Shown in pieces: positions 1-60,205 of a stretch of 64,000 nucleotides of DNA. This stretch comes from Histomonas meleagridis (lineage: Eukaryota > Parabasalia > Tritrichomonadida > Dientamoebidae). Both the position numbers and the translations under genes were made by a program. Position 1 is the first letter of the stretch. Each line of letters starts with the position of its first letter. The stretch lies in NCBI GenBank assembly GCA_020186115.1, contig WSYJ01000144.1:310001-374000 (forward strand). The letters run 5' to 3'. The notes below the pieces were generated by a model. That model had not been told where the DNA came from, searched no databases, and worked only from the letters and a program-made list of their open reading frames with translations.

Positions 1-2465
1 ATAAATGGTCATAAAGAAATATTTAAATTACTTCTTGAACAAGAAGGAATTGATGTTAATGCTAAAGATATTTATTCTTTTTATTTGAAATTTATTTTAA
101 TAATTTTTTATTTCAAAATTTTATTTGGAAATTGTGTAATTTATTTAAAACAGCACTTATTTATGCATCTAAGAAAGGTGAAATAGAAATAGTTAAATTA
201 CTTCTTGAACAAGAAGGAATTGATATTAATGCTAAAGATATTTATTCTTTTTATTTGAAATTTATTTTAATAATTTTTTATTTCAAAATTATATTTGGAA
301 ATTATTTAAAATATTTAATACAGCACTTATGATAGCATCTTCAAAAGGTTATACAGAAATCGTTAAATTACTTCTTGAACAAGAAGGAATTGATATTAAT
401 GCTAAAGATATTTATTTATTTTATTTTTATTTTGTTTTAATAATTTGGTATTTTAAAATAATATTTGGAAATTATTCAAAATATTTGAAACAGCACTTAT
501 ATTAGCATCTGAAAATGGTCATACTGAAATTGTTAAATTGCTTCTTAAACAAAAAGGAAATGATATTAATGCTGATAAAATTTATTTGTTTTATTTTTGA
601 TTTATTATAATAATTTCATATTTCAAAATAACAATTCGGAATCATTTAGAATGTTTAATACGGCACTTATTTTGGCATCTGAAAAAGGTTATACTGAAAT
701 TGTCAAATTACTTCTTGAACAAGAAGGAATTGATATTAATGTTAATAATATTTAATTATTTTATTTATGATTTATTATAATAATTTGATGTATCGAAATA
801 ATATTTGGAAATTATTTGAATTATTTATGACTGCACTTATGTATGCGTGTGAAAAAGGTTACATAGAAATAGTTGAATTACTTCTTAAACAAAAGCAAAC
901 TAAATTTAACGAATGTAGTATTATTTTCATTTTTTCATTTTAATTTATTTTTATAACTTGGGAAAATTTCAAATTTTTATTTAAAAATTATATAAATAAT
1001 TTTGTTCAGCACTTATGTGTGCATGTGAAAAAGGTCACAAAGAAATAGTTGAATTACTTCTTAATTTATCAAGATCTATCGAGATTTATGACAAAAATAT
1101 TTACTTGTTTTATTTGATATTTATTTTTATAATTTAAAGTTATAAAACAATATAAGGAAATTATTTCAAATACATGAAACTCCACTTATAATTGCATATC
1201 GAAATGGTCATTATGATGTAGCGAAATTAATTCTTGAATATAAAGAAGTATGTTTATATCTTATAAAGATTTATACATTTTAATTCGGGTTTCTCTTAAT
1301 AACTTTGGGATATTTCAAGATAATATTTGAAATATATTTAAATTAATTGAATTAGTTCTTATTGATGCATCTACAAATGGAAAAATAGAAATGGTTAAAA
1401 TACTTCTTGAACAAAATAAATATTATATTAAATTTTATGATAATATTACTTCTAATGATATTATATATTAAAATAATATTTGGAAATTATCCAAATAAAT
1501 TCGAACACCATTTATTTTAGCATGTGAAAATGGTCATATAGAATTAGTTAAATTTCTTCTTAAACAAAAAAAAATTGATATTAATGCTCATGATATTTAT
1601 TTGTTGAATTTTTTATTAGTTTTAATAATTTGGTGTTTCAAAAAAATATTTGGAAATTATTTAAATTAATTTGGACAGCACTTATGAGCTCATGTTATAA
1701 TAATCAAATCGAATCAGTTAAATTACTTCTTACATTAAACAAAATTGAAGTTAATGTAAAAGATATTTTATTGTTTTGTTTAAAATATAATTTCATAATT
1801 TAAGATTTCTAAATATTACTTGGAAACTATTTACATGATTTGATTCAGCGTTTATGATTGCGGTTTCAAATGGTCATATAGAAATAGTAAAATTACTTCT
1901 TGAATTTAAAGGAATTGATATCAATGCTACAGATATTTACTTAAAATATATGATATTTGTTTTAAGAATATTATGTTTTAATATAAGATTTGGAAATTCT
2001 TTAAATCATTTAATACAACACTAATGAAAGCATCTTCAAAAGGTTATTTGGACATAGTGAAATTACTTCTTAAACAAGAAGGAATCGATATCAATGCTAC
2101 AGATATTTACTTATAATATTTCATTTTTGTTTTAAGAATTTTATGTTTTAAAAGTAGATTTGGAAATTCTTCATATTATTTAATACAACACTAATGATGG
2201 CATCTAGATTTGGTCAGACAGAAACAGTTAAATTCCTTCTTGAACAAAAAGGAATTGATATCAACGCTAAAAATATTTGTTTATTTTATTTGATAATTGT
2301 TTGAATAATTTGATATTTTAAACTGATACCTGAAAATCGTTTATTTTAATTGATACAGCATATGTTTTAGCAACATCTTTTGGTCACAAAAAAATAGTTA
2401 ACTTACTTTCTGAGCAAAAAGGAATTGAAATTAATCCCAATTATGCATGTTGGATAAGTAAATAG
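1..2465 (+). CDS. Ankyrin-repeat gene, 3' part, every repeat separated by a 68-nt intron-like spacer
   Basis: Fifteen ankyrin units are visible, the first cut by the window edge. Each has a core of about 30 codons of the form T-A-L..A...G...EIVKLLLEQ.GIDINAKD. Cores begin (Thr codon) at 150, 320, 490, 660, 830, 1006, 1179, 1352, 1505, 1675, 1845, 2015, 2185 and 2355. None of the fourteen complete cores holds a stop codon, although they differ at many positions. Between cores lies an A+T-rich spacer that changes the frame, so no continuous reading frame exists. The last unit runs without a spacer into a TAG at 2463. Known of the family: trichomonad ankyrin proteins usually follow an N-terminal DUF3447 region, which would lie upstream of this window. 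Inference: a gene spliced in every repeat. The alternative is a pseudogene or a reservoir of silent cassettes. Confidence 0.7.
240..319 (+). other. Representative inter-repeat spacer (intron-like)
   Basis: This spacer lies between the Asp codon ending one ankyrin core and the Thr codon starting the next. It opens with GATATTTATT and ends with TTTGGAAATTATTTAAAA plus a few bases before the Thr codon. The same two blocks recur at most other spacers in all three arrays. If the 12 nt needed to complete a 34-codon repeat are set aside, 68 nt remain. The stretch contains no GT dinucleotide, so a GT-AG intron cannot lie wholly inside it. Confidence 0.55.
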
Positions 2466-2751: not shown

Positions 2752-3039
2752 TTAGTATCCTCGGTAACCTGGATAGCCTGGTTGTGGATAACCTGGTTGT
2801 GGATAACCTGGTTGTGGATATCCTGGTTGTGGGTAAGCTGGTGGAGGAGGAGCATATCCTGGTTGTGGGTAAGCAGGTGGAGGTGGAGCTGGGTAAGCAG
2901 GGCGGTACATTGTATTTGGATAAGCAGCTGGGTAACCTGCGTTGTATGTTGTGTGTCCAAACCTACGTCTTGATGAGGATGAAGAGGAAGATCCGAAGTA
3001 ACCATAGCGTCCGTGCTTATAGCGATATTTTGGTGCCAT
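2752..3039 (-). CDS. Small GYPQP-repeat protein, basic Tyr/Gly-rich N-terminus
   Basis: 95 residues starting MAPKYRYKHG at the ATG at 3039; a longer version would need a non-ATG start. Residues about 1-30 are basic and rich in Tyr, Gly and Ser, with a run of Ser followed by three Arg. From about residue 45 onward the protein is built of Pro-Gly-Tyr units (AYP, PQPGYP), with four near-identical PQPGYP copies close to the end. It has no signal peptide or membrane segment. Similar low-complexity tails occur in annexins, rhodopsins and scramblase-like proteins, but here no folded domain is attached. Function unknown. A TAACGGTC-type promoter motif lies 15-22 bases upstream of the ATG, which favours this start and a real gene. 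Confidence 0.65.
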   Translation of the reverse strand: MAPKYRYKHGRYGYFGSSSSSSSRRRFGHTTYNAGYPAAYPNTMYRPAYPAPPPPAYPQPGYAPPPPAYPQPGYPQPGYPQPGYPQPGYPGYRGY

Positions 3040-10496: not shown

Positions 10497-12846
10497 TCAC
10501 AAATCTTGTAGTTCCTTAAGTCCTTGGTCGTAATAATTTGAACCATTCCAATTTATACTGTTGGAATGCTGCCCATGTTCCCAATTGATATTTTTAAATA
10601 ATGTATTTGAAGGTTGTGGATTCGCAACCAATTTTCCATTCCTTTCATAAGTGAGATTCTTGTGTTCTATATGTTTTTCATTAGCATTATATATAATTCC
10701 TTTTTGCTTCTTTAACAATTCTACAATTTCTGTGTTTTTATTTTTGATAGCAAAAATTATTGCAGTATTACCTAGAATGTCTTCATCATTAACATTAATT
10801 CCTTTTTGTTCATGGAGAAATTGAACAACATTTAAATGTCCATTTGCAGAAGCACCTATTAAAGAACTAATAAAAAAATGAAAGAAATTCCAAATATCAT
10901 TTTGAAATATAAAAAAAATCATGTGAAAATTGTACTTTAAAAACAGATATTTTTTGCATTTATATCAACTCCTTTTAGTTCAAATATTAATTTAGCAATC
11001 TCTAAATTACCATTAAAGCATGCTTCCATAAAAGCTGTACCAGAAAAAATTAAGAAATTCCAAATATTATGTTGAAATAAAATTTTGTAGTAATTAACAT
11101 AATAAATATTAATAGAACTCCATATAAATTATAATTAATTCCTTTTTGTTCAAGAAGCAATTTAACAATTTCAACGTTTCCTATTGAACATGCAATCATT
11201 AAAGCAGTTTCAAAAAATATAATTAAATTCCATATATCAATTTAAATCGTTGAATAATTAAATTAAATATAATATAATATAAATTCAAAAAACATTTCTT
11301 AAATTAATATCAATTTCCTTGTGATCTAAAAGAAGTTTAACAATTTCTTCATTATTTATATGACAAGCATACATCAAAGGGGTCATAAATTTTTGAAATG
11401 AAATCCAAAAATTATTAATAAAATTGAAATAATTAGAAAAAGCACTAAACAAGTTATATAAATATCAACTGTATTGATATCAATATTGTCTTGTGAAGGA
11501 AGTAATTTGGCGATTTCTACATGGTTTTTTTGAAGTGCAATTGTCAATCCTGTATATCCACTATTATTTTTCCAATCAATATCAAGATCTTTTTGTTCTA
11601 AAAATAATTTGACTATTTCAATATTATTTTCTTCACAAGCATACATAAATGCTGTAAAAAATATTCAAAACAAAATCCAAATACTATATTGGAATTACTT
11701 ACTAATTTAATGAATTTTATTTTAAACAAAAAAATATTTTTTGCATTAATATCGATGTTTTTTTGTTCAAGAAGAATTTTAACAATTTCATAGTTTCCAA
11801 AAAATGATGCTACTATGAGTGCTGTATTAAATCATTTAAATAAGTTCCATATATTTTAGTAAAATATCAAATTAAGACAATATACTATAATTTAAACATT
11901 AAAACATTTTTGGCATTATAATTAATTTCTTTTTGTTCAAGAAGTAATTTAACAATTTTATCATTACCTATTTTACATGCTTTAATTAAAGGTGTAAAAG
12001 TCAAAAAAATTTAAAAAATTTAAATATTAGAAATAATTTTTTTCAATTGAATCAAAATAACATTTTTCATATTAACATCAATATCCTTATATGAAAGAAT
12101 ATGTTCAACAAGTTCAAAATTATTTGCAACAATTGAATATGGAAGTGATTCTTTTGGAATTGTTTTTTTAAAAACATGTTTTAATGATAAAAAAATATAA
12201 ATATAAATATTTAATGATAAAAAAATTACCATTTTCAAACAGCTTGCTCATGATATCAAATTTGATTTCAAGACCATTTTGAAGCAAAAACAAAAAAATT
12301 TCAAAGTTATTTTCATCTATGGAATTGATAGCAAAGGTAGAAATAGTTTTTAATATCTTATTTTCATCATTTTGTGAGTCATCAGGTTGATTATTTTTAA
12401 TTTTTGTTCTATTAATGAAGGTATAAATTCTTCCATGTTTTTTTTCTGTTGTAATATCTATTTTATTATTTTCATAAAGATAACGAAAGATATCATTTCT
12501 ATGATATCTAATAGCTATAATGCATGCGTCTTTAAATGATGCATTATTTTGTTCGCATAAATGAATAATTTCAAAATTTCCACCTACAACTGCATAAGCG
12601 CCAGTATCTATAACATCAGCATTATTTAACAATAAGTATTTGAAACAATTAATTGATCCATAAAAAGCTGCACAATCAATTAGCGATGGTGTTTTATTTA
12701 AAGAATAAAAATCATTATCGAAAAACTTATCTAATTTTTGATTGAAGTCAAAATCATTTGCTGAAATTTCTTGAAGTTTTTCTATGTCATCGCTTTTAAT
12801 TATTTGCTCAATCAGTTGAACTTGTTCCATATTGCCAAAATATATA

Positions 12847-13253
12847 TGAAATCCATTGATTTTTCTATTAATGAACTTGGATCAAGTTTAATTAGTGACG
12901 AAATTCAGCGACCAAACAGTTCGCGAATTATCATTAACAATTGTAAATTCGAAGACAGCGAAAATATGCGAACGAATTACTTCCTGAACACGATTTACTG
13001 CGAAGCGCCGATTGAAGTCATCGACGAAAATGTTCTCTTAAATCGTCTGAGCAACGAAGAAGTTATCCTTTTGATTGTTGTTTGCGTTGCAGTTGTTGCA
13101 GAACTTGCGGAAGTGCTTTTGTATCTGTACCGAAAGAGTAACGAAAACGAAAGCGAAGAAGTGAGCGAATACGAAGAAGAGTGCGACGAATACTCCGACT
13201 TTTACTATGAAACATTCGATATGAATCCGCTGCAGAACACAGAGTACATCTGA
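12847..13253 (+). CDS. Small single-pass membrane protein with acidic tail
   Basis: About 135 residues from the ATG at 12847 (MKSIDFSINELGSS). A longer frame opens upstream only inside the opposing gene. One hydrophobic segment (EEVILLIVVCVAVVAELAEVLLYLY) at about residues 75-98 is followed by a short basic stop and an acidic Glu/Asp/Tyr-rich tail. No family recognised. Codon use is clearly more G+C rich (GCG, GAA, CGA) than in the flanking ankyrin gene, suggesting a separate origin. It lies inside the minus-strand DUF3447 gene, flanked by a 20-bp direct repeat, so it appears to have been inserted there. Confidence 0.5.
12853..12872 (+). repeat. 20-bp direct repeat, left copy
   Basis: Identical to 13471-13490. 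The right copy encodes LIEKSMV of the minus-strand DUF3447 protein; the left copy encodes the SIDFSIN start of the small membrane protein. The pair brackets a segment of about 600 bp. Confidence 0.7.
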
Positions 13254-13308
13254 GTGCGAATGCGAATTATTTGTAAATAAAATGTTTCGTAACTTTCAAT
13301 TGTGAATT

Positions 13309-13358
13309 AGTGAAATGTTTTGAATTAATAAATAAATTTAAATTACGTAATCAGCGCA
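13309..13358 (+). repeat. 50-bp direct repeat, copy 1
   Basis: Begins AGTGAAATGTTTTG and ends CAGCGCA. A copy with no difference that I can see lies at 13413-13462, offset by 104 bp. Both lie downstream of the small membrane-protein gene, which suggests a local tandem duplication of its 3' flank. Confidence 0.75.
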
Positions 13359-13412
13359 GCAGCGAAACAACTTAAGAAGTGTGCGACGCGATGCACCGAT
13401 AACGTGCAAATA

Positions 13413-13462
13413 AGTGAAATGTTTTGAATTAATAAATAAATTTAAATTACGTAATCAGCGCA
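13413..13462 (+). repeat. 50-bp direct repeat, copy 2
   Basis: Second copy of the repeat at 13309-13358, immediately before the right-hand 20-bp repeat. Confidence 0.75.
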
Positions 13463-13470
13463 TTGTTGAA

Positions 13471-13490
13471 CCATTGATTTTTCTATTAAT
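13471..13490 (+). repeat. 20-bp direct repeat, right copy
   Basis: Identical to 12853-12872. It could be a duplicated insertion target, or the remnant of a second copy of the small membrane-protein gene. Confidence 0.7.
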
Positions 13491-13959
13491 TCCATTGGCT
13501 TGTTTTGTCTCTGAAGCATTTTTATTTGATTGAAATCTTTGGGCGATGAATGACGCATTAGATTGCCAATTTTTGTGAAGGCAGCATCTGAATGATACCT
13601 TTATCAGTGAATTTTTTTTCAACCATTTGAAGAATAATATCTTTTGCACCCTCACCAAGTTTCTGAATGAGATAACTTCCAAATATTGGAAAAATTTGTA
13701 CATCTTTTTGGAGAAGCATTTTTTCGCTGGTTTCAATCTCTTTTAAAAACTGAAAATAAATGTTTATATCTTTTTTATTCAAATTGAAAGATGAATAAAT
13801 ATATTTAACAAGAGTTATGTTAAATGAAAAAGGGTAATTAACATCAAATAACTTTAGAACTGATTTAACTGCAAAATAGATGTTTTCCTGATTGAGATTG
13901 AAAATGGCTTGATCAAAATTTTGAATGTAATTTATTTGTGGCTGAAAATTAGATTCCAT

Positions 13960-19040: not shown

Positions 19041-19480
19041 AAGCTTATGCATGGATCTGATCTTCCTTCAAGCAATTTAACAATATCTTCATGAGAACAT
19101 TTGGATGCAAGTGAAAGCGGTGTATCAAAAATTATAAATAAATACCAAATACAATTTTAAAAAGCTATATTATCAAAATAAATTTTAAATTTAATGGATG
19201 CATATTTTTGGTATTTGTTTTAATACCCTCTTGTTCAGGGGGTAACTTAACAATTTGAGTATGGCCACCTTGAGCAGGAAGCAAGAGCTGTATTAAATAA
19301 TTTAAATAATTTCCAAATTTCATATTGAAATCCAAAATTTATAAAATACATTTGATATTAAACAAATAAATATCTTTACCATTAATATCAATTCCGTTGT
19401 GTGCAAGAAGTAATTTATATATAGCTGTATACAGCCTTTCTGAACTACTAAAGTGAGCGATGTATGGTTTGATTAGATTT
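19041..19480 (-). pseudogene. Decayed ankyrin-repeat remnant
   Basis: Three ankyrin units are recognisable on the minus strand, with Thr-position codons at 19463, 19291 and 19123 (spacing 172 and 168). The last reads TPLSLASKCSHEDIVKLLEG and runs to the end of similarity. The first two contain frameshifts inside the unit core, unlike the three better preserved arrays, so this copy looks truly dead. Spacers of about 70 nt are still present between units. Confidence 0.6.
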
Positions 19481-25688: not shown

Positions 25689-27311
25689 ATGAATATTAAA
25701 TTTACATATATAATGTTTGTTATCTTTTTTTATCATTCACTCCAAATTTTTGACAATGCAACATTAACATTAAATATTTCGAATTCGAGTGAATTTAATA
25801 ACAACTACAAAAACAAAGCCAAACATGTTATCATTTCAAGTGGAATAACTGATATTCCAAACAAAGCTTTTTATGAATGGCCTTTATTGATTACTGTTGG
25901 TATTAATAATTCAGTCAAATCAATTGGAGAAAGTGCATTTTCTTCTTGTATTCTCATAGAAAATATTTCATTTGGAGAAGGTATTACAGATATTGGAGAT
26001 TGTGCATTTCAATCTTGTAGTGCATTAAAAAGTGTATTATTTAAAAGTCCGATTGCAAAAGTTGGGAGAAAGGTATTCTTTGGGTGTAATGCTCTTGAAA
26101 GTGTATTTTTCGATGAAGGTGTGAAAACAATTGGATTTTTAATGTTTCATCTTTGCACAAATCTAAAATATGTTAAAATTTCAAAAACAGTTTCTTCGAT
26201 ATCATCAAATCCATTTATTGCATGTAAAAGTCTTCAAATTATAAATGTTTCAAAAGAAAATCCATATTATTCTAATTACAATGAAGCTTTGTGTGATAAA
26301 AATCTTACAAAAGTTATTAGTTACCCAATTGGTAATACAAATAAAACTTTTAAATTTCCAGATTCTGTTACTTCAATTGAATCATATGCATTTTTTTCAT
26401 GCACTAATTTAATATCAATTTCATTAGGAAAAAATGTAACTATGATAAAAATTTTTGCATTTTTTGAATGCGTATTTACGAATTTCACTATTCCAGATGC
26501 AGTTGAAAATATTGAATTTAAATCTTTTTTTTCTTGTAAAAAATTAGAAACAATTATCATTGGAAAAAATGTTAAATATATTGGTGGTTCTTCATTTTCA
26601 GAATGTACTTCACTTAAATGTATTTATTTTTATGGTGAAACTTCTCCAACTTTTGGAGAAAATTGTTTTCTTTCAATCATAGCAAAGTTTGTTATGGTAA
26701 GTGAAAAATATCGAAACGCAACATTTGAAGAATTAAATGTAACCAAAGAGACAATTGAAGGATGTAATCCATTGCCCACACAAACATTTACACAAACTAA
26801 AACAAATACTTTTACTAAGTCAAGTTCAAGTTCACATTCAAATACACTTACTAAATCGAATACATTTTCATCATATACCACATTTACAGAAACATATTCT
26901 TCTGATGTAACTTTAACACATTCATATTCAGTGACATATATTTTATCATTTACACAAACATTAAGTATTTATAGTTCATTTTTCAATTCATTTATTCTTA
27001 CGAATATTAATTCAATATCCACATATATTTCAACATCAGTTATATATTATGATTATACAGTAAGTCTTTATTCTGATTATTTCATGTCTTATTCAGGTTT
27101 TAATATGGATAAAAATAGTGAAAATAAAAATGACGATAAAACACATATTTATGTTGGAGTTGGAGTTGCAATTGGATTTGTTGTTGTTGCTTCATTAATT
27201 ATTATTTTTTTGGTTTATATTCGAAATAAAAGAAATCAAAGCAATCAAAGTAATGAAGAATCAAATAATGACGATAATGAAGTAAATTCTCTGTCAAAAG
27301 AATACGAATAA
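25689..27311 (+). CDS. BspA-like TpLRR surface protein (intact)
   Basis: 540 residues. A hydrophobic leader covers 1-20 (MNIKFTYIMFVIFFYHSL). Residues about 25-330 are TpLRR/BspA-type leucine-rich repeats (SVKSIGESAFSSC..LENISFGEGITDIGDCAFQSC). A Ser/Thr-rich stalk of about 140 residues follows (TFTKSSSSSHSNT...). One membrane segment at about 478-500 (VGVGVAIGFVVVASLIIIFLVYI) precedes a short charged Asn-rich tail. Known of the family: large trichomonad families of such proteins sit on the cell surface and are thought to act in adhesion. The stalk DNA is almost identical to that of the genes at 27545 and 40359. Its 3' flank has the ATTGAATAAAACATC element shared by its relatives. Confidence 0.88.
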   Translation: MNIKFTYIMFVIFFYHSLQIFDNATLTLNISNSSEFNNNYKNKAKHVIISSGITDIPNKAFYEWPLLITVGINNSVKSIGESAFSSCILIENISFGEGITDIGDCAFQSCSALKSVLFKSPIAKVGRKVFFGCNALESVFFDEGVKTIGFLMFHLCTNLKYVKISKTVSSISSNPFIACKSLQIINVSKENPYYSNYNEALCDKNLTKVISYPIGNTNKTFKFPDSVTSIESYAFFSCTNLISISLGKNVTMIKIFAFFECVFTNFTIPDAVENIEFKSFFSCKKLETIIIGKNVKYIGGSSFSECTSLKCIYFYGETSPTFGENCFLSIIAKFVMVSEKYRNATFEELNVTKETIEGCNPLPTQTFTQTKTNTFTKSSSSSHSNTLTKSNTFSSYTTFTETYSSDVTLTHSYSVTYILSFTQTLSIYSSFFNSFILTNINSISTYISTSVIYYDYTVSLYSDYFMSYSGFNMDKNSENKNDDKTHIYVGVGVAIGFVVVASLIIIFLVYIRNKRNQSNQSNEESNNDDNEVNSLSKEYE

Positions 27312-27544
27312 GATAATTTTGTTGTTCATACATGTTGAAAAATTTTATTGAATAAAACATCAAAATTATTTTTAATTAATTTAATTAAATATTGAGAAAA
27401 TTTGTATTACAACAAGTGAAAGCAATGAAATTATTAATTTTTATAAAATAAGAAATTACATGAATACTTCTCAACAATTTTCATAATTTTGATCATATTT
27501 AATGGACCAAAATTGATGTGTATTTTTCATATTGTAAGTCCTCT

Positions 27545-28835
27545 TTTTAGGGTTGAATCAAATGCATTTCTTTTATGTTCTGGCCTTGAAACAGTAATTT
27601 TTGATGAAGGTGTTCAACATATTGGAGAATTTATGTTTCGCGATTGTAAGAATTAAAATATGTTAAAATTTCAAAAACAGTTTCTTCGATATCATCAAAT
27701 CCATTTATTGCATGTAAAAGTCTTCAAATTATAAATGTTTCAAAAGAAAATCCATATTATTCTAATTACAATGAAGCTTTGTGTGATAAAAATCTTACAA
27801 AAGTTATTAGTTACCCAATTGGTAATACAAATAAAACTTTTAAATTTCCAGATTCTGTTACTTCAATTGAATCATATGCATTTTTTTTCATGCACTAATT
27901 TAATATCAATTTCATTAGGAAAAAATGTAACTATGATAAAAATTTTTGCATTTTTTGAATGCGTATTTACGAATTTCACTATTCCAGATGCAGTTGAAAA
28001 TATTGAATTTAAATCTTTTTTTTCTTGTAAAAAATTAGAAACAATTATCATTGGAAAAAATGTTAAATATATTGGTGGTTCTTCATTTTCAGAATGTACT
28101 TCACTTAAATGTATTTATTTTTATGGTGAAACTTCTCCAACTTTTGGAGAAAATTGTTTTAGGAATATTTTAGCAAAATCTGTTATGGTATTTGAAACAT
28201 ATCAAAGCAAAACATTTGGCGAACTAACTGCCACAAAAGGAACAATTGAAGGATGTAATTCAATACATACACAAACATTTACACCAACTGAATCAAATAT
28301 TTTTACACAATCAAGTTCAAGTTCACATTCAAATACATTTACCAATTCAGGATCATTTTCAATTTCAAGTACAGGTTCGCGTTCAAATACACGTACTGAA
28401 TCGAATACATTTTCATCATATACCACATTTACAGAAACATATTCTTCTGATGTAACTTTAACACATTCATATTCAGTGACATATATTTTATCATTTACAC
28501 AAACATTAAGTATTTATAGTTCATTTTTCAATTCATTTATTCTTACGAATATTAATTCAATATCCACATATATTTCAACATCAGTTATATATTATGATTA
28601 TACAGTAAGTCTTTATTCTGATTATTTCATGTCTTATTCAGGTTTTAATATGGATAAAAATAGTGAAAATAAAAATGATAATAAAACAAACATTTATATT
28701 GGTGTTGGAGTCGGAGTTGGAGGAGTTGTTATTGCTTCGTTAATTATCGCATTTTTAATTTACATTCGAAATAAAAGAAATAAAAGTAATGAAGTAAATA
28801 ATGATGATAATGAAAATGAAATATATATTTTTTGA
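27545..28835 (+). pseudogene. BspA-like gene, 5'-truncated tandem copy with frameshifts
   Basis: No leader is present; similarity begins around 27545 inside the LRR region (VESNAFLLCSGLETVIFDEGVQHIGEFMF). One missing T near 27652 and one extra T near 27888 break the frame. From about 27655 to 28170 the DNA is nearly identical to 26160-26690 of the upstream gene. The stalk, membrane segment (VGVGVGGVVIASLIIAFLIYI) and a shorter tail ending EIYIF are all present. It appears to be a partial tandem duplicate. The single-base breaks may be assembly errors, but the missing 5' end is real in this sequence. Confidence 0.75.
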
Positions 28836-29384: not shown

Positions 29385-31510
29385 ATGGAAGGAACAAAGA
29401 ACAAATTTCAGAACGAATTGGACAAACTTATATCCATTAACAATGCAATTTTTAATTTGAGCAAAGAAAATATAACTCAAATGATAGGTTTAATAATTAA
29501 TAAATTTGATTTTACAAACGCATTATCATTTAATTCAATTATAAGTCAAATGGTATATATAATTTTCTGTATAAAATTAAATTCTTCTGATATATATTTA
29601 GAATTTCTAAAAGAAATAGAAGAATTTGAATATAAAAATAGTGTTGAATCAAAAATAACATCAGTATTCACAAATTATCTTCTTAAGCAAAACACACAAG
29701 AATCATATTATCTTCTTAATTGTATGATTGAACATAATTTTATAGAAGCAAATAATGTTCAAAATCTAAGGTTACCATATTTTATACATTTAATGTCAGA
29801 TGAAGAAACAAAAAATCTCATCTTCTGAATCAATTCAAAGAAAATTATGATAAACTTTCAAAGAACGAATGGGAACTTCATAAGATATATGTTAAAGAAG
29901 GAGTTAATCCAAATGAAATTGCGAAAATAATTCGAAATGATGATATAGAGAAACTTCAAGAAATATCATCACAAAATAATTTTGATTTTAATCAAAAAAT
30001 TGAGCCATCACTATATGAAAGATGTTCATTCATTAATAAGAACAAAGTTTCTTTATTGATTATGCAGCATTTTTTTCTTCTATTAAATGTTTCAAATATT
30101 TACTTATGAATGGTGTTATTGTAGAAAATACAGGTAAATATGCAATTGCAGGTGGAAACGAAGAAATCATTCATTTATGTGAACAAAATCATTCATCATT
30201 TGAAGATGCGTATGAAATTGCAATTAAATTCTATCGAAATGATGTTTTTAAATATATTTATGGAAATAAATCAGAAAAATCTGAGGAAAATAATCAACAA
30301 AATCCAACAATTTCATCTATTTATGGAAATAAAAATTTTGATATAACTAGGCTAACAGCTCAAATTGTGAAAACCAATAACTTAGAAGAATTAGGAAAGA
30401 AATGTATTTTATATCATAATTATGAAATTTTAACATTTTTGATTGAAGAAGGTATGAAAATTAATGATAATATTATTAATGAATCAGCAAAAATTGGAAA
30501 CATATTTCTTTTGAAGTATCTTCTTGAAGGAAATCAAATTCCGAAAAATATTTTACTTATGTCTTTAGAAACCAAAAACATTGAAATTGTTAAATATGTT
30601 TTAGAGCAAAAAGGTATTGATATCAATTATAAAGGAATTTATTAAATTTCTTTGGAATTTATTTTGATGATTTTGGATTTCAACTTAATATTTGGAAATT
30701 ATTTTAATTGTTTAACACGGCGCTTACATATGCATCTTCTAAATGTAATATAGAAATCGTTAAATTACTTCTTGAACAAAAAGAAATTGATATTAATATT
30801 AAAGATATTAATTTGCTTTATTTGATATTTATTATAACAATTTTTTGTTTCAAAATAATATTATATGGCAATTAATTAAATTATTTTTTACACCATTTAT
30901 ATTTGCATCTCAAAGCGGAAATATTGAAATTGTTAAATTACTTCTTGAACAAAAAGGAATTGATATTAATGCTAAAGGAGTTTATTTGTTTTATAAAAAA
31001 ATATTTTAAAACAATATTTGGAAATTGTTTATATTATTTTATAATGCACTTATATTTGCGTCTAAAAAAGGTAATTTAGAATTGTTTCAATTACTTTTTG
31101 AACAAAAAGGTATTGATATCAATGCTAAAACTATTTATTTTTTCATTTCGAAATTTATTTAAATAATTTTCTATTTTAAAATAATATATGGAATTTATTT
31201 AAAGTATTTGAAACAGCACTTTTCTTTGCATCTCAAAATGGTCATACAGAAATAGTTAAAATACTTCTTGAACAAAAAGAAATTGATGTTAATACTAAAA
31301 ATATATATTTGTTTTCTTTGAAATTTATTTTAACAATTTTGGATTTCAAAATAATATTTGGAAATTATTTAAATTATTTTGGACAGCACTTATTTATGCA
31401 TCTAATCATGGAAATGTAGAAATAGTTAAATTACTTCTTGCACATGAAGGAAATGATGTTAATGCTAAAGATTATTTATTTGTTTTGTTTAAGGTCTATT
31501 TTTAAAACTT
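29385..31510 (+). pseudogene. DUF3447/ankyrin gene with inter-repeat spacers and two frameshifts
   Basis: N-terminal helical region from the ATG at 29385 (MEGTKNKFQNELDKL). DUF3447 part with KLSKNEWELHKIYVKEGVNPNEIAKIIRNDDIEKLQEIS, and GGNEEIIHLCEQNHSSFEDAYEIAIKFYRND further on. Frameshifts lie near 29825 and at about 30053 (one A missing in SLIDYAA). Ankyrin units start at 30547, 30717, 30890, 31043, 31213 and 31383, spaced 170, 173, 153, 170 and 170. All cores are open; the spacers have the same sequence blocks as in the array at 1-2465. The last unit ends around 31480 without a recognisable C-terminus. It may be a living spliced gene with assembly errors or a dead copy. Confidence 0.6.
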
Positions 31511-32436
31511 TATATCATAAAATAATATTTGGAAATTATTAATAATATTTAAAAAGGAAATATAGATTTTGATTTTGGACATTGACTTCAATTTTCTCAT
31601 CATCTAGTAAACGAAAATCTGAAACATAAATATAAAAATGTAACGCTTTTATTAATGAAATATTAAAATCATCCAGTAACAAATTAATTGAGTTCTTAAT
31701 GAAGTTATTAATATTCCTTTTTAATCCTTCGAGTGTTTGTTGAATAGAACCAGATTAATTATCAAACAATGTTTCCAATACAACATTATGGTTATTACTA
31801 ACTATGTAACATTTTATCTATAAATGGAAAACATGAACTCTAATTAGAGATAATTTTTTTACACAGGTATTATTAGTTGTTGTAATAACTTTTTTTAATA
31901 GAAACTCATTAATTGTTGTTGATATCTTATAAAACATTTGTAATATGATGTTAATATCAACGGATGTTATAAATTCTTACTTTGTATAATATTTTAATTC
32001 ATGTAACATTAAAAAATTGGATTAACTTTTACTGATAGATTTTCGAGTACTTTTAATCATGGTAATATCAAAAACATATTATTGAGTTAAATGATGTTCG
32101 CATTCTTAAATGTATTAACTAATATTTCAATGACAAATTCAATCAATCATCTTGAAAAATGTAAATTTTTTTTAATTTCATCAAAATTTATTATGTTTTC
32201 TTTTGCCGTTTGCGTTTTTGTTAATTTTTCGGCATTAAGGAATTCAAGTGATTTTGGTTAACTTTGTTTATTGATTTCATAAGATTCTTGTTCTTTATTA
32301 TTACATATTTTTTTAAACATTGAAATCTTTTCTTACGTAACATACTTAAATCATAAATTAAATGGTTCTTGTATAAATTAGACAAAATCGAATTATTTAA
32401 TGATGAATTGGTTTTGGTGTACGTTTAAAATTAAAA
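31511..32436. other. Long A+T-rich intergenic region with a coding-like minus-strand remnant
   Basis: Between about 31565 and 31760 the minus strand is open for about 60 codons (SIQQTLEGLKRNINNFIKN...), with protein-like composition but no ATG or recognised family. The remainder (31760-32436) shows only short diverged repeats of the type AACATTATG/TTGTTGTTG and no gene. Confidence 0.3.
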
Positions 32437-40358: not shown

Positions 40359-42464
40359 TTATGCACGAACACCAAAATTTTGTTCTTTGTTATCATCATT
40401 GCTATTATCATCTTTAATAATAATCATTTTATCATTATCATTAAATGATCCTTCATTAATTTGATTTCTTTTCTTTCGAATGTAAATTAAAAATGTAATA
40501 ATTAATGAAGCAACAATAACGATTCCAATTGCAACTCCAACACCAATATAAAGTTTTGTCTTATCTTCATTTTTAATAACATTGTTTTCAATAATATAAA
40601 AACCTGAATAAGACATGAAATAATCAGAATAAAGACTAACTGTATAATCATAATATATAACTGATGTTGAAATATATGTAGATATTGAATTGATATTCGT
40701 AAGAATAAATGAATTGAAAAATGAACTATAAATACTTAATGTTTGTGTAAATGATAAAATATATGTCACTGAATATGAATGTGTTAAAGTTACATCAGAA
40801 GAATATGTTTCTGTAAATGTGGAATATGATGAAAATGTATTCGATTTTGTAAGCGTATGTGAATATGACCTTGAACTTGACTTAGTAAAAGTATTTGTTT
40901 TAGTTGGTGTAAATGTTCTTGTTGGTATTGGTTTACATCCTTCAATTGTTTTATTCGTAACATTTAATCCACCAAATGTTTTGTTTTGATATGTTTCATA
41001 TACCATAACAGAATTTGCTAAAATATTACTAAAACAATTCACTCCAATTGTTGGAGAAATATCACCATAAAAATAAATACATTTAAGTGAAACACAAAAA
41101 CTAAATGCAAGAGCTTCAATATTTTCCACATTTTTTCCAATGATAATTGTTTCTAACTTTTCACTTGAAGAAAAGGCACTTAATCGAATTTCTACAACAG
41201 AGTTAGGAATTGTTATGTTTGTAAATAAACATTCAGAAAATGCATTATTTTTTATAATTTTTACACTTCTTCCAAATGAAATTGATAATAGCTTTTTACA
41301 CATTTCAAACGCACTTTCTTCTATTGATATAACTGAATCTGGAACTTTAAATTCTTTAGATGAATTTCCATATGGATAACTTATGAGTTTTGTAATACTC
41401 TTATCATATAAAACTCCATCACGTTCTGTGTAATATGGATTTTCTTTGGAAATATTTATAATTTGAAGATTGTCACAACGAATAAATGGATTTGATGATA
41501 TTGAAGAAACTGTTTTTGAAATTGAAACAGTTTTAAGATTCAAACAGCCGTGAAACATGAGAGCCCCAATTGTTTGGACACCTTGATCAAAAAATACACA
41601 TTCAAGGTTTGCGCACCCAAAAAATGCATTTGACCCAACTGTTGTAAGAGGGATTTTGAATTTCAATTTTTTTATTGCATTACAAAATCGAAATGCATTT
41701 GACCCAATACTTGTTACACCTTTTCCATATGAAACATTTTCTATGTGAGGACATGAATCAAATGCATTTTCTCCAATTAAGGTGACTGAATTTGGAATTG
41801 TAAATGTTTTATTGGCTTTTCCAAATGGATAAATAATGAGTTTTGCAATATTTTTGTCATATAAAACTCCATCATGTTCAGAATAATATGGATTTTCTTT
41901 GGAAATGTTTATGAATTTAAGATTTTGACAGTAAATAAATGGATTTGTTAATATTGAAGAAACTGTGCTTGAAATTGTAACATCTTTTAGCGCATAACAA
42001 TTGTAAAACATATAAGATCCGATTGTTTGAACACCTTCATCAAAAAATACACTATCAAGACCAGTACATCCTATGAAGACATTAAACCCAACCGTTGTAA
42101 TAGGACATTTGAATCTCAAATTTTTTAATGATGTGCAATAACTAAATGCATTTGACATAATAATCTCTATACCTTCTCCAAATGAAACATTTTTCAAGAT
42201 ATAACAATAAGAAAATGCACTTTCTCCAATTGATGTAACTGAACTATTAATTACAGCAGTAATTAATAAACTCCATACATAAAAAGCTTTACTTGGAATT
42301 TCTGTAATTCCACTTGAAATAATAACATGCTTTGTCTTGTTTTTGTAATCGTCATTAAATTCACTCGATTTCGTAATAGTTAATGTTGACGTTTTATTAT
42401 CAAAAATTTGGAACGAATGAGAAAAAAAGATAATAAATATGATGAAAATAAAGTTAAAATTCAT
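40359..42464 (-). CDS. BspA-like TpLRR surface protein, long (about 19 LRRs), intact
   Basis: 701 residues from the ATG at 42464 (MNFNFIFIIFIIFFSHSFQIF), chosen because it aligns with the leaders of the relatives. The frame stays open 136 codons further upstream but without homology. Leader, two consecutive LRR blocks separated by the SKENPYY...DGVLYDK...KLIIYPFG insert (which occurs twice), then the Ser/Thr stalk, one membrane helix (YIGVGVAIGIVIVASLIITFLIYI) and a charged tail of about 40 residues. The duplicated insert shows internal doubling of the LRR domain. The stalk DNA is nearly identical to that of the genes at 25689 and 27545. A fragment very like its second LRR block lies at 57690-58184. 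Confidence 0.88.
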   Translation of the reverse strand: MNFNFIFIIFIIFFSHSFQIFDNKTSTLTITKSSEFNDDYKNKTKHVIISSGITEIPSKAFYVWSLLITAVINSSVTSIGESAFSYCYILKNVSFGEGIEIIMSNAFSYCTSLKNLRFKCPITTVGFNVFIGCTGLDSVFFDEGVQTIGSYMFYNCYALKDVTISSTVSSILTNPFIYCQNLKFINISKENPYYSEHDGVLYDKNIAKLIIYPFGKANKTFTIPNSVTLIGENAFDSCPHIENVSYGKGVTSIGSNAFRFCNAIKKLKFKIPLTTVGSNAFFGCANLECVFFDQGVQTIGALMFHGCLNLKTVSISKTVSSISSNPFIRCDNLQIINISKENPYYTERDGVLYDKSITKLISYPYGNSSKEFKVPDSVISIEESAFEMCKKLLSISFGRSVKIIKNNAFSECLFTNITIPNSVVEIRLSAFSSSEKLETIIIGKNVENIEALAFSFCVSLKCIYFYGDISPTIGVNCFSNILANSVMVYETYQNKTFGGLNVTNKTIEGCKPIPTRTFTPTKTNTFTKSSSRSYSHTLTKSNTFSSYSTFTETYSSDVTLTHSYSVTYILSFTQTLSIYSSFFNSFILTNINSISTYISTSVIYYDYTVSLYSDYFMSYSGFYIIENNVIKNEDKTKLYIGVGVAIGIVIVASLIITFLIYIRKKRNQINEGSFNDNDKMIIIKDDNSNDDNKEQNFGVRA

Positions 42465-43420
42465 TTTATTTTTGATTTGTTGTTTAATTAATTGACGTTT
42501 TATCAATGAATAAATAATAACGATTGATATAAATATATTAGAATATAATTTAGTATTTATTTGAAAAGATTTAAAAAGATTGAAGAAATTTGAAAAGAAA
42601 GATGATAAACATTCATTTACATGTTCAAAATAAATAACCAATTGATATAAATTATGATAAAGATATGAATTTCGAATGTTTATTTGTAAATATTTAAATG
42701 TTTCATTACTTTTTAATGAATTATTAAACATGTCATTATGATTTACAGGATAATTATAAATATAATTAAGTTCTTTGTTTTCATTATTTAAAGAATGTTT
42801 AAAATTAGATACTAGCATGTAAAGATAATTTCCAATTACCATTTGTATTGATATCATTGCAAAATAATACAAAATATAATTTTGATTTTTAATTATATAA
42901 TAATTTTTTGACTCAAAAACTACTTCAAAATAAACATGCTTTTTACATTCAAATATATTTATTTGATTTTTTTAAATGACGTATCAATTAAATAAAAAAA
43001 CATATTTATAATTATGTAGTTGGTGATTTATAAGTAGCTAAATAATTAAATTGTGCATTTTGTTTCAAAGAGTTTTTTTAGAAATCATTTTTTTTGTTTT
43101 TTTTCATTTTAGCGATTTAAATAAAATTTAATGTTTGGTTATATTTATTTTTGATATCATAAATACAACTACAATTGGTGAAAATGAAATTATTGTAATT
43201 TCTCTCTTGAGGATTTTTTAAACAATATAATATTTCACTTGAATAACAATATTAATATGGGATATGAAAAAATCTTATTGCGAAGAAATTCGTTTTAAGA
43301 TTATGGAAAAATTTTAATATATATAAGAAATAATATTCCAAAGAATTATTTTAAAATCATGAAATCCAATAAATATTATAAGTTGGAATTTTAATGTTTT
43401 ACTTATGAAATCCTTTTATA
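42465..43420. other. Intergenic between two BspA-like genes
   Basis: About 950 bp, strongly A+T rich. The 30-60 bp directly upstream of the ATG at 42464 match those upstream of 45034 (encoding KQQIKNK in frame), so the 5' flank was duplicated with the gene. No other feature found. Confidence 0.4.
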
Positions 43421-46189: not shown

Positions 46190-46900
46190 AAAGTCTATAT
46201 GAATATCATTAAAGAAATAAAAAAAATTTGAAGATAACAAACAGATACAAAGTAAAATACATAAAGTTTTCTTGAAAAATGATTTTGAAAATATGTTATC
46301 AAGAATCAAATTATTTTCTTGAGAGAATGATTCAAGAAAATTTATGTGAATCGAACATAATTGAACAGGTGAGAGAAGAATCATATTTTATACCTTACAT
46401 GTCCAAAAATTCCAGAAGAGAATGACTATTTGAAACCAAAAATGGGAAACATTAAAGAACTTTCAAAGAATGATTGGGAAATTAACAAGAAATTAATCAA
46501 AGAAAGTGTTAATCCAAATGAAATTGCAAAAATAATTCGAAATGATGAAATAGAAAAACTTCAAGAAATATCATCACAACCAAATTTTGATTTTAATCAA
46601 ACAATTGAACCATCACTTTATGAAAGATGTTCATTTATTAATAAAAAAAATGTTTCATTAATTGATTATGCAGCATTTTTTTTCTTCTATTAAATGTTTT
46701 AAATATTTACGTATGAATAATGCAAATGTAAATAACACATGTAAACATGCAATTGCAGGTGGAAATGAAGAAATCATTCATCATTTGAGGATGCATATGA
46801 AATAGCAATTGAATTCCATCGAAATGATATCTTCAAATACATACATGAAAATAAAATATGTCATATTAAAAAAAAAAAAAAAATTAAAAATTTAAAAAAT
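46190..46900 (+). pseudogene. DUF3447-domain pseudogene (copy 1)
   Basis: Similarity to the gene at 29385 starts around 46215 (FEDNKQIQSKIHKVFLKNDFENML) and continues through ERMIQENLCESNIIEQ, KMGNIKELSKNDWEINKKLIKESVNPNEIAKIIRNDEIEKLQEIS and NVSLIDYAAF. It has several frame changes, an extra T in the run at about 46679, and a 22-bp deletion at about 46775 between two ATCATTCAT copies. It ends in an A-rich stretch near 46880 with no ankyrin units behind it. Confidence 0.7.
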
Positions 46901-47302
46901 GAAAAAATTCCAAAGATCTGGCTAGCAGATGCTCATTTGGGAAAGTATCTAATAACAACCCGCTCACCTCATGTTTTTGGTCTTTTCTTTTATCAATTAT
47001 AATTTTTACACGCATATTTTTATAGTTTTTTTAATATTAACACATTAACAAATTTTTTCAATCCCAATATTTTTTCTATTATACTCATTTCTTTTTTATA
47101 ATTTTATATCTATATCTTAATAAGTTTATTTTAAAAATTTCTTATTGTTTGCTTCGCTTTGATCCGCAAACGGCGCGAAGCGCATTCTTGTTATGATAAG
47201 ATTCTCAATTAAAATATCTAAAAATCAATCAGAAGAAATTCAAAAATGCATTATATTTGGAATAAATAGCTATATTATATTACCATATTATACAGAAACC
47301 TT
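46901..47302. other. Intergenic with a hairpin
   Basis: T-rich sequence. At about 47154-47184 GCTTCGC and GCGAAGC form a 7-bp stem around a 17-base loop, in the most G+C-rich stretch of this interval. No gene seen. Confidence 0.35.
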
Positions 47303-48260
47303 TTGAAAATGTTGAATCGAGGATACTCAAAATTTTATTATTTATCTTTCCCAAAAAGTGGTTTCAACTTGTTATTGATGAAACTCTCGAAATCATTAGA
47401 ATCAATTGTCTTTAATTTAAACGAAAATAATTTAGAAACATCAGTTCAAGAAACAATTAATTTATTTGTTGATGTACTACCATATACATTTAACTATCTT
47501 GTTACCATACTTATATTTCAGTATTTGTTTCTCAAGCTTATGATGAAAATACATATATTAAATATTTATTGATTTTAAATGCAAAAGAAGAAGAAGAAGA
47601 AGAAAAAAAAAAAAAAAAAAAAACCAAAGTAAAACTGAAGTTAATATTGTTCAAATATTTTGTAAATATTTACTGAAAATAAAAAAGCAAGAATCATATT
47701 TCCTTCTTGAAAAGATGATCGAAGAAGAAATAGGTGAACCATCTTCAGTAAAGAATGTGAACACATTATATTTTTCTCAATATAAAACAAAAGAAGAAAT
47801 AAACAAATTAATGAACAAATGGGCAGAACCTCATAAATTATCAAAAAATGCTTGGAAATTTCATATGCAATATGTAAAAGAAGGAGTTAATCCATTAGAG
47901 GTTGCGAAATGATGATTTAGAAAAGCTTCAAGAAATATCATCACATAATGAATTTGACTTTAATCAAATAATTGAACCATCACTTTCTGAAAGATGTTCA
48001 TTTGTTAATACTAAAAATGTTTCATTAATTGATTATTGTGCATTTTTTAGTTTGATTAAATGTTTTAAATATTTATTATCAAATAATTCTAATATTAAAA
48101 ATACATCTAAATATGCAATTGCAGGTGGAAACTTAGAAATTATTTATTTATGAGAACAAAACAATTCATCATTTAAAGAAGCATCTGAAACAACGATCGA
48201 ATTTCATCGAAATGAAATTTTTCGTTCTCTTTATGAAAATAAAATTAACATTTTTTTTCC
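47303..48260 (+). pseudogene. DUF3447-domain pseudogene (copy 2)
   Basis: N-terminal part from about 47380 (SKSLESIVFNLNENNLETSVQETINLF). An A-rich break lies near 47600, then IVQIFCKYLLKIKKQESYFLLEKMIEEEIGE, LSKNAWKFHMQYVKEGVNPLEVAK and NDDLEKLQEISSHNEFDFNQIIEPSLSERCSF...SLIDYCAFFSLIKCFKYLLSNN. An 11-bp deletion at about 47908 removes the IIR of AKIIRNDD. The conserved Cys of IIHLCEQN is a TGA at about 48151. Two copies of the same family lie within 2 kb, in the same orientation. Dead by several independent lesions. Confidence 0.72.
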
Positions 48261-59984: not shown

Positions 59985-60205
59985 ATATATAATCGTAATA
60001 ATATATATAATCGTAATAATATATATAATCGTAATAATATATATAATCGTAATAATATATATAATCGTAATAATATATATAATCGTAATAATATATATAA
60101 TCGTAATAATATATATAATCGTAATAATATATATAATCGTAATAATATATATAATAGTAATAATATATATAATAGTAATAATATATATAATAGTAATAAT
60201 ATATT
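59985..60205 (+). repeat. 18-bp minisatellite, about 12 copies
   Basis: Unit ATATATAATCGTAATAAT. Nine copies carry CGT and the last three AGT. Because 18 is a multiple of three and the unit lacks stops in several frames, two plus-strand frames and one minus-strand frame stay open through it. I do not regard these as genes. It ends 110 bp before the right arm of the inverted duplication. Confidence 0.92.

Follow-up and report, generated by a model that had tools for sequence, protein, structure and literature searches.

Frame-breaking spacers in nearly every ankyrin repeat of a Histomonas meleagridis gene family as candidate unconventional introns

In the parabasalid poultry parasite Histomonas meleagridis, ankyrin repeat genes are interrupted in nearly every repeat by a short AT-rich spacer which breaks the reading frame. 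The ankyrin cores are coding and the spacers between them are non-coding, as follows from the counts of stop codons, from the counts of insertions and deletions, and from the failure of read-through in 24 of 29 genes. This combination leaves three routes, namely removal of the spacers from the RNA, skipping of the spacers by the ribosome, and indirect selection on silent cassettes, of which removal from the RNA is favoured here because it needs the least and fits the fixed spacing at the right-hand side of the spacer. We consider it moderately probable that one unconventional intron of 68–71 nt is removed per repeat at the RNA level, probably by a route unlike that used for the cell's ordinary introns; that removal occurs, that it occurs in RNA, and what its machinery and exact ends would be we infer from the DNA.

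The window analysed is a stretch of 64,000 nucleotides (contig WSYJ01000144.1, positions 310,001 to 374,000), of which array 1 occupies positions 1..2465 on the forward strand with a partial first core followed by 14 ankyrin cores and their spacers. This is the 3' part of a DUF3447/ankyrin gene, and the original prediction, which had confined the feature to 1..2465, drew it too narrowly: the ATG of the gene (C80:308574, L050:1575) sits 1,427 nt upstream of window position 1 (C80:310001). The N-terminal frame is intact over 390 codons until a TGA shortly after the start of the first spacer closes it, and at L050 it lies within the Pfam cut-offs for DUF3447 (1.6e-10) and Ank_2 (2.3e-11), which places it in the DUF3447/ankyrin protein family. 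The cores start at 150, 320, 490, 660, 830, 1006, 1179, 1352, 1505, 1675, 1845, 2015, 2185, and 2355, all 14 exactly where they had been predicted. The threonine codon said to open each of them is present in 11 of the 14 units, with serine at 1006 and 1845 and leucine at 1352. The proposed period of 170 bp was confirmed, nine of the 13 intervals being exactly 170 nt and Tandem Repeats Finder reporting a period of 170 with 13.7 copies and a score of 1268 at positions 3–2322. The other intervals are 176, 173, 173, and 153 nt, so that the predicted exceptions of +3, +3, and +6 hold and a fourth, which at −17 is no multiple of a codon away from 170, had been omitted. The cores had also been described as free of stops, which is correct up to the last codon, where the unit at 660 has a TAA (codon 32 of a 32-codon core). 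Their ankyrin pattern is borne out by the three single cores scanned, which match Pfam Ank with 9.6e-8, 4.8e-9, and 2.7e-7. The second of these values belongs to positions 320–415, which contain an example core of 31 translated codons at 320..412 (+ strand); in the ankyrin numbering which we assume, we take this core to run from Thr-6 to Ile-2. The spacer behind it has its longest likely extent, as judged from substitutions and stops at its edges, at 413..483 (+ strand; nt 94–164 of the 170-nt unit, 71 nt), with ends uncertain by a few nt either side, and carries the TTTGG of a conserved block at 464..468 (+ strand), 26 nt ahead of the core start at 490. The last core, 2355..2465 (+ strand), ends in ...NPNYACWISK at an in-frame TAG (2463–2465).

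Two further arrays were found in the window. Array 2, on the forward strand, consists of five cores with spacers at about 30717..31554, at intervals of 173, 153, and then twice near 170 nt, behind an N-terminal DUF3447/ankyrin part at 29418..30633 that was recovered by tblastn in three pieces in differing frames. Array 3, on the reverse strand, consists of diverged cores and spacers at 10776..11995; one of its junctions is spacer-less (102 nt, 11655 to 11553), as is the last one, after 10868, and its N-terminal part at 12062..13911 is broken, again in three tblastn pieces. Two units and the spacer separating them survive as a remnant at 19202..19461 (−), and decayed, frameshifted copies of the DUF3447 N-terminal part with no array downstream lie at 46360–48250 (+). 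The window also holds two genes with BspA-type leucine-rich repeats (LRR_5) at 25689–28835 (+) and 40359–42872 (−), one of which contains a 453-nt internal repeat, a small frame rich in YPQPG-like repeats with tandem units of 15 and 36 nt at 2756–3038 (−), and an 18-nt tandem repeat, ATATATAATCGTAATAAT, at 59985–60204 (12.2 copies, 99% matches).

One 170-nt unit has at least 168 matches within the same genome, where many paralogues are filled with such units, and the repeat architecture is thus not due to chance. Among 296 neighbouring units (25 loci and the window; L003 was dropped as it overlaps L048) the interval is 170 nt in 238, 153 in 11, 171 in 8, 173 in 6, and 150 in 5, the rest having other values; this and the occurrence of the same unit in many paralogues support the predicted joint amplification of repeat and spacer. 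An enlarged set including later loci, restricted to lengths of 140–200 nt, comprises 332 distinct units, 252 of them of 170 nt, 25 of 153 nt, and 10 of 171 nt; the loci had been picked by similarity to the unit or for open frames (L051–L053, L056, and L057) and are a non-random sample. From array to array the gene extends over an N-terminal DUF3447/ankyrin frame and then units of about 33–34 codons. The genome contains 101 matches to P0004, which is related to the N-terminal part, and 92 of them cover most of that part; 61 of these 92 are stop-free, and some of the other 31 continue into the first spacer. A rule-based call, applied to the 41 array rows that have three cores or more, gave an intact N-terminal part in 23, a broken one in 8, and an unknown state in 10; for five of the 23 the locus used starts inside the N-terminal part, and array 1 is counted twice, as L050 (intact) and as the window (unknown). 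A search of viral contigs found no relatives, and a search of genome contigs gave L075, a shortened relative without an array, and the distant L076. L075 (CALUSQ010000040.1) is a trichomonad contig inside a bacterial metagenome-assembled genome, with an N-terminal DUF3447 frame, a mariner-like frame recognized by eye, and also the start of P0001.

The coding nature of the cores is seen in what they avoid. In 225 distinct units of 170 nt the core frame has seven stops versus 124.3 ± 6.6 in column shuffles, six of the seven being the last codon changed from TAT to TAA, and the other two frames come near to expectation (391 stops versus 422.7, and 1215 versus 1211). As column shuffles ignore kinship, near relatives were compared as well, along 180 edges of a tree, none with more than 25 differences and each taken both ways: five stop-making differences were found in the core frame where 168.9 were expected, and 140 versus 232.6 and 122 versus 209.1 in the other frames. 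The hypervariable codons 5, 8, and 9 and the codon before the threonine are each without a stop in the 225 units, with 34.0, 45.5, 13.5, and 20.4 expected, about 113 in total if columns vary independently. According to the ankyrin numbering which we assume, these are presumably for the most part surface positions, as expected for a diversifying binding family. Frame-changing length differences occur in 2 of 296 cores and in 36 of 291 spacers; a stop within codons 1–31 was found in 6 of 289 cores from units of all lengths, the core is open in 325 of the 332 distinct units, and substitutions are least frequent at the second codon position (14.8 changes per site versus 24.7 and 22.2). Two claims of the original prediction, that the cores hold an open frame which the spacers do not and that the array is not dead DNA, are thereby upheld, neutral decay being rejected by the stop counts, by the stop-making differences between near relatives, and by the frame-changing indels. 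The suggested comparison of dN/dS between cores and spacers discriminated poorly, the N/S ratio being 0.72 for the core frame and 0.78 and 1.54 for frames 1 and 2 (0.59, 0.53, and 1.48 when the hypervariable codons are left out); since these ratios are weak, the case for coding does not lean on them.

The spacers behave differently. In the 225 units, 127 spacers have stops in the frame of the upstream core and 66 in that of the downstream core. The last 45 nt of the spacer are open in 233 of the 332 units; among the units with a length that is a multiple of three, the spacer tail is open in 29 of 47 and the entire unit is readable in 25 of 47. Stops in the downstream frame of the spacer number 97 versus 141.1 ± 5.4 in shuffles, which points to some constraint on the spacer sequence. 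Of 29 genes with a readable N-terminal end, 20 have the first core in another frame and 4 have it in the same frame but after a stop, which leaves 5 in which read-through can get to it (L016, L031, L053, L056, and L057, the last three from loci picked for open frames). P0011, a protein from another source, reads through one in-frame spacer, and the resulting peptide resembles those of the 153-nt units found here. The left half of the spacer (nt 89–118 of 170-nt units) contains ATATTTATTT twice, 20 nt apart, which would account for units of 150 and 190 nt through slippage, and it is from the same stretch that 17 nt are absent in the 153-nt units.

At the left edge substitutions are few up to the codon ATT at nt 91–93 (12, 3, and 9) and climb at nt 94–96 (25, 26, and 18), where 6 of the 225 units have TAA. 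At the right edge TTT is retained at nt 165–167 in 203 of the 225 units and the following codon is hypervariable and stop-free, and nine stops fall on the codon at nt 162–164. This pattern suggests that the removed piece starts after nt 93–96 and finishes at nt 161–166, and a length of 68 or 71 nt would be needed to preserve the frame; the 68-nt element originally proposed fits the spacer-less junction of L059, and the substitution and stop pattern permits 68–71 nt. At this junction L059 reads KNV-L-F-E-SPL with a 102-nt period ahead of units of 170 nt, and P0004, with its best match in this genome 60% identical, reads KNV-M-F-E-SAL, so that natural spacer-less junctions coincide with the edges deduced for the spacer. 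The matches shown by a pattern search for such junctions were mostly the right ends of spacers themselves. Eight of the 14 best relatives (P0001–P0014) terminate at the left edge of the spacer (...KDI, KDV, KGI, QDI, QNI), among them P0013, a Histomonas meleagridis protein annotated to end at the first spacer, and we infer a stop codon at that end point in all eight. Among the remaining relatives the comparison with this genome covered P0004 (60%) and P0011 (51%), both of which stem from other sources. Units with a spacer have Phe in place of the ankyrin Gly-4 and are nearly invariant at positions 2 and 3, while the spacer-less genes L054 and L055 keep Gly-4 and vary at positions 2 and 3; the needs of the spacer itself may keep the adjoining sequence constant.

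The reading as a conventional intron found no support, as the intron signals of this genome are nearly absent from the spacers. In 291 spacers read from codon 31 onward, the trichomonad spliceosomal 5' end is represented by GTATGT in two and GTAAGT in one; 27 have no GT at all and 58 none within their first 20 nt. As to a 3' end of the ACTAACACACAG type, ACTAAC occurs in 0 of the 291 and AG in the last 12 nt of 36. The motif CTAACACACAG has 11 genomic occurrences, its reversed control 4, and in 6 of the 11 a GTATGT stands 65–113 nt ahead of the end of the motif, so that ordinary GTATGT..CTAACACACAG introns are present in this genome and the spacers, nearly all of which lack such signals, are of another kind. 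A pattern GTATGT..ACTAAC was found at 31 places versus 239 for the reversed control. In L069 and L064 introns of the ordinary type interrupt kinase-like sequence, and CTAACACACAG stands at the same place before such sequence in L069, L064, and L070 (G000 C92, C36, and C103), which looks like ordinary Histomonas introns at a shared position; we take the sequence to be kinase-like from a motif that we assume to be diagnostic. A U6 snRNA match scored 43.7 bits, just below the cut-off of 44, and Rfam gave no U1 match in this genome, nor in the control genomes.

What the spacers do share lies at their right-hand side. TTTGG is found exactly 26 nt ahead of the next unit in 252 of the 332 units, is shifted in 5, and has no nearby copy in 75; the 26-nt distance is kept in 204 of the 252 units of 170 nt and in 48 of the 80 units of other lengths, from 146 to 190 nt, and the differences in length are absorbed by the distance from core to TTTGG, which ranges from 24 to 68 nt. 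In 61 diverged units TTTGGA is present in the right-hand stretch of 59%, versus 0.3% of shuffled spacers. Another TTTGG sits further left in some spacers. A search for spacers outside ankyrin arrays gave 15 places where the right-hand block precedes a codon continuing with C or G, and all six of those fetched turned out to be ankyrin units with a changed first codon. The spacing recalls the fixed distance from branch point to edge which is described for trichomonad and diplomonad introns (PMC6679479). RNA structure gave no signal in 62 diverse spacers (mean z −0.18), a candidate AT helix paired at 0.788 versus 0.770 ± 0.009 in permutations, and the consensus fold, at 0.0 in both data and null, carries little information. 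A structure pairing the spacer ends found no support.

At the array ends, the last cores of 31 arrays stop at codons 9–28 in 10 cases and by codon 37 in 19; six more stop at codons 40–43 and six have no stop in the stretch read, in some because the locus ends. The early-stopping ones have short tails such as KLLNSQI, KLIKKK, and KLLEQKRNII, and KDIL or KNIL ends are found among those stopping by codon 37. The internal cores of the same arrays have six stops and one frameshift in 306. Internal cores are disrupted in 4 of 82 with a broken N-terminal part versus 3 of 224 with an intact one (p 0.086), a trend in the direction expected for linked decay which is not significant.

As proposed here, the arrays would be parts of protein-coding genes in which an N-terminal DUF3447/ankyrin frame precedes the run of units and an in-frame stop often falls inside or just past the last unit. 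The spacer would be cut from the RNA ahead of translation in nearly every unit, resulting in an uninterrupted ankyrin solenoid, and would represent a small unconventional intron amplified along with the repeat; the likely recognition parts would be the left edge, ATATT followed by TATTT, and the right-hand block TTTGGAAAT at its fixed distance from the right edge. The chances are about even that this amounts to a second class of nuclear introns in Histomonas and its relatives, with no GT-AG borders, no pairing of ends, a TTTGGAAAT block whose distance to the right edge is constant, one copy in nearly every ankyrin repeat, and up to some 30 per gene. Several observations speak against removal. 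The Phe at ankyrin position 4 would not by itself be explained by it, 25 of the 47 multiple-of-three units are readable with P0011 reading through one such spacer, and a broken N-terminal part does not go with significantly worse cores. P0013 is annotated as ending at the first spacer, and the published models give no gene more than one intron. The lack of GT-AG borders and of an RNA structure signal, the weak N/S ratios, and the stops in 6 of 289 cores count on the same side.

An alternative is a protein that stops at the first spacer, with downstream cores that stay open as silent cassettes because they are occasionally copied to a site of expression, in the manner of antigen cassette arrays. 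Annotated and predicted proteins do finish at the first spacer, some genes, such as L059, express the first extra core, and codons 5 and 8 show 50 and 58 multi-base differences, as recombination could produce. We nevertheless regard silent cassettes as unlikely, since an acceptor is not evident when the first core fails to lie in a readable frame in 24 of 29 genes, and since the 10 of 31 last cores that stop at codons 9–28 resemble natural protein ends.

Ribosomes that skip every spacer in an unspliced mRNA would have to perform many efficient hops in a row per gene, and we know of no bypassing in a nuclear gene of this sort. The matching TTT (nt 100–102) and TTT (nt 165–167) of the consensus would moreover require coding codons at 94–99, where the codons ahead of the pair contain stops in 6 and 3 of 225 units; bypassing thus seems very improbable to us, even if the fixed distance from TTTGG to the right edge could serve for landing and frame-breaking non-coding inserts are skipped at 81 places in Magnusiomyces mitochondria (PMC5009743). 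Still less probable is a translated spacer forming a protein loop, with a −1 frameshift or an RNA base insertion in each unit. It could draw on in-frame units of 153, 156, and 171 nt, some of them open, on the somewhat reduced stops in the downstream frame, and on a slippery-looking TTTAAAT in the consensus, but tail stops are found in 99 of 332 units and in-frame lengths fare no better (18 of 47), set against cores open in 325 of 332; translation with a frameshift or a missed base was rejected on account of the spacer stops. The lowest probability of all is assigned to dead DNA, spread in satellite-like manner from a broken gene, or to an assembly error losing one base per unit. The N-terminal part is broken in 8 of 41 array rows, decayed copies occur at 46360–48250, and the assembly is nanopore-based with short-read correction; against this, stops and frame-changing indels are avoided in the cores, the restoring of one base leaves the spacer stops in place, and 7 of 13 related proteins from other sources, which are known as proteins only, end at the same codon.

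Removal from the RNA, the reading preferred here, would add hundreds of unannotated mini-introns of a hitherto undescribed type, and a long ankyrin protein family absent from the current gene set. The Histomonas genome paper counts 573 introns among 11,119 genes, no gene having more than one (PMC8529796), and the main text of that paper does not mention ankyrin. One proteomics paper lists the ankyrin-repeat protein KANK1 as quantified, and two other proteomics papers are without mention of ankyrin; in the open-licence literature on Histomonas or Tritrichomonas introns and ankyrin and on parabasalid introns, no title or abstract reports such spacers. Up to some 30 introns per gene, if true, would contrast with the one or two per gene that have been taken as the upper limit in this lineage. 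The arrays provide hundreds of natural variants of one small element in a known frame, which makes its signals readable and testable. Should the spacers not be removed, hundreds of ankyrin frames are being kept open by some other cause although they are not translated, and that would be equally odd.

Genes with one exon per protein repeat, in which repeat and intron were amplified together, are familiar from animal ankyrins and collagens, whose introns are conventional and of varied length, unlike the spacers described here. The spliceosomal introns of trichomonads are likewise short, AT-rich, and non-coding, and their internal signal keeps a constant distance from the right edge (PMC12316389, PMC6679479); those of Trichomonas vaginalis have GTATGT and ACTAACACACAG-type ends and number at most two per gene (PMC12316389), whereas the spacers are without these ends and occur in nearly every repeat. 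The nonconventional introns of euglenids and diplonemids resemble the spacers in lacking GT-AG borders and in coexisting with ordinary introns (PMC6221363, PMC12621601), and a paper from 2018 stated that such introns had not been seen outside these two groups (PMC6221363). Their ends pair in a stable structure, of which none was detected in the spacers here, and their removal is proven, in an unrelated lineage, whereas the spacers are known from DNA. The bypassing elements of Magnusiomyces mitochondria are also short and non-coding, and they too disrupt the frame of genes that are conserved in other respects (PMC5009743), but they are mitochondrial and scattered, whereas the spacers of Histomonas are nuclear and take one fixed place in each repeat.
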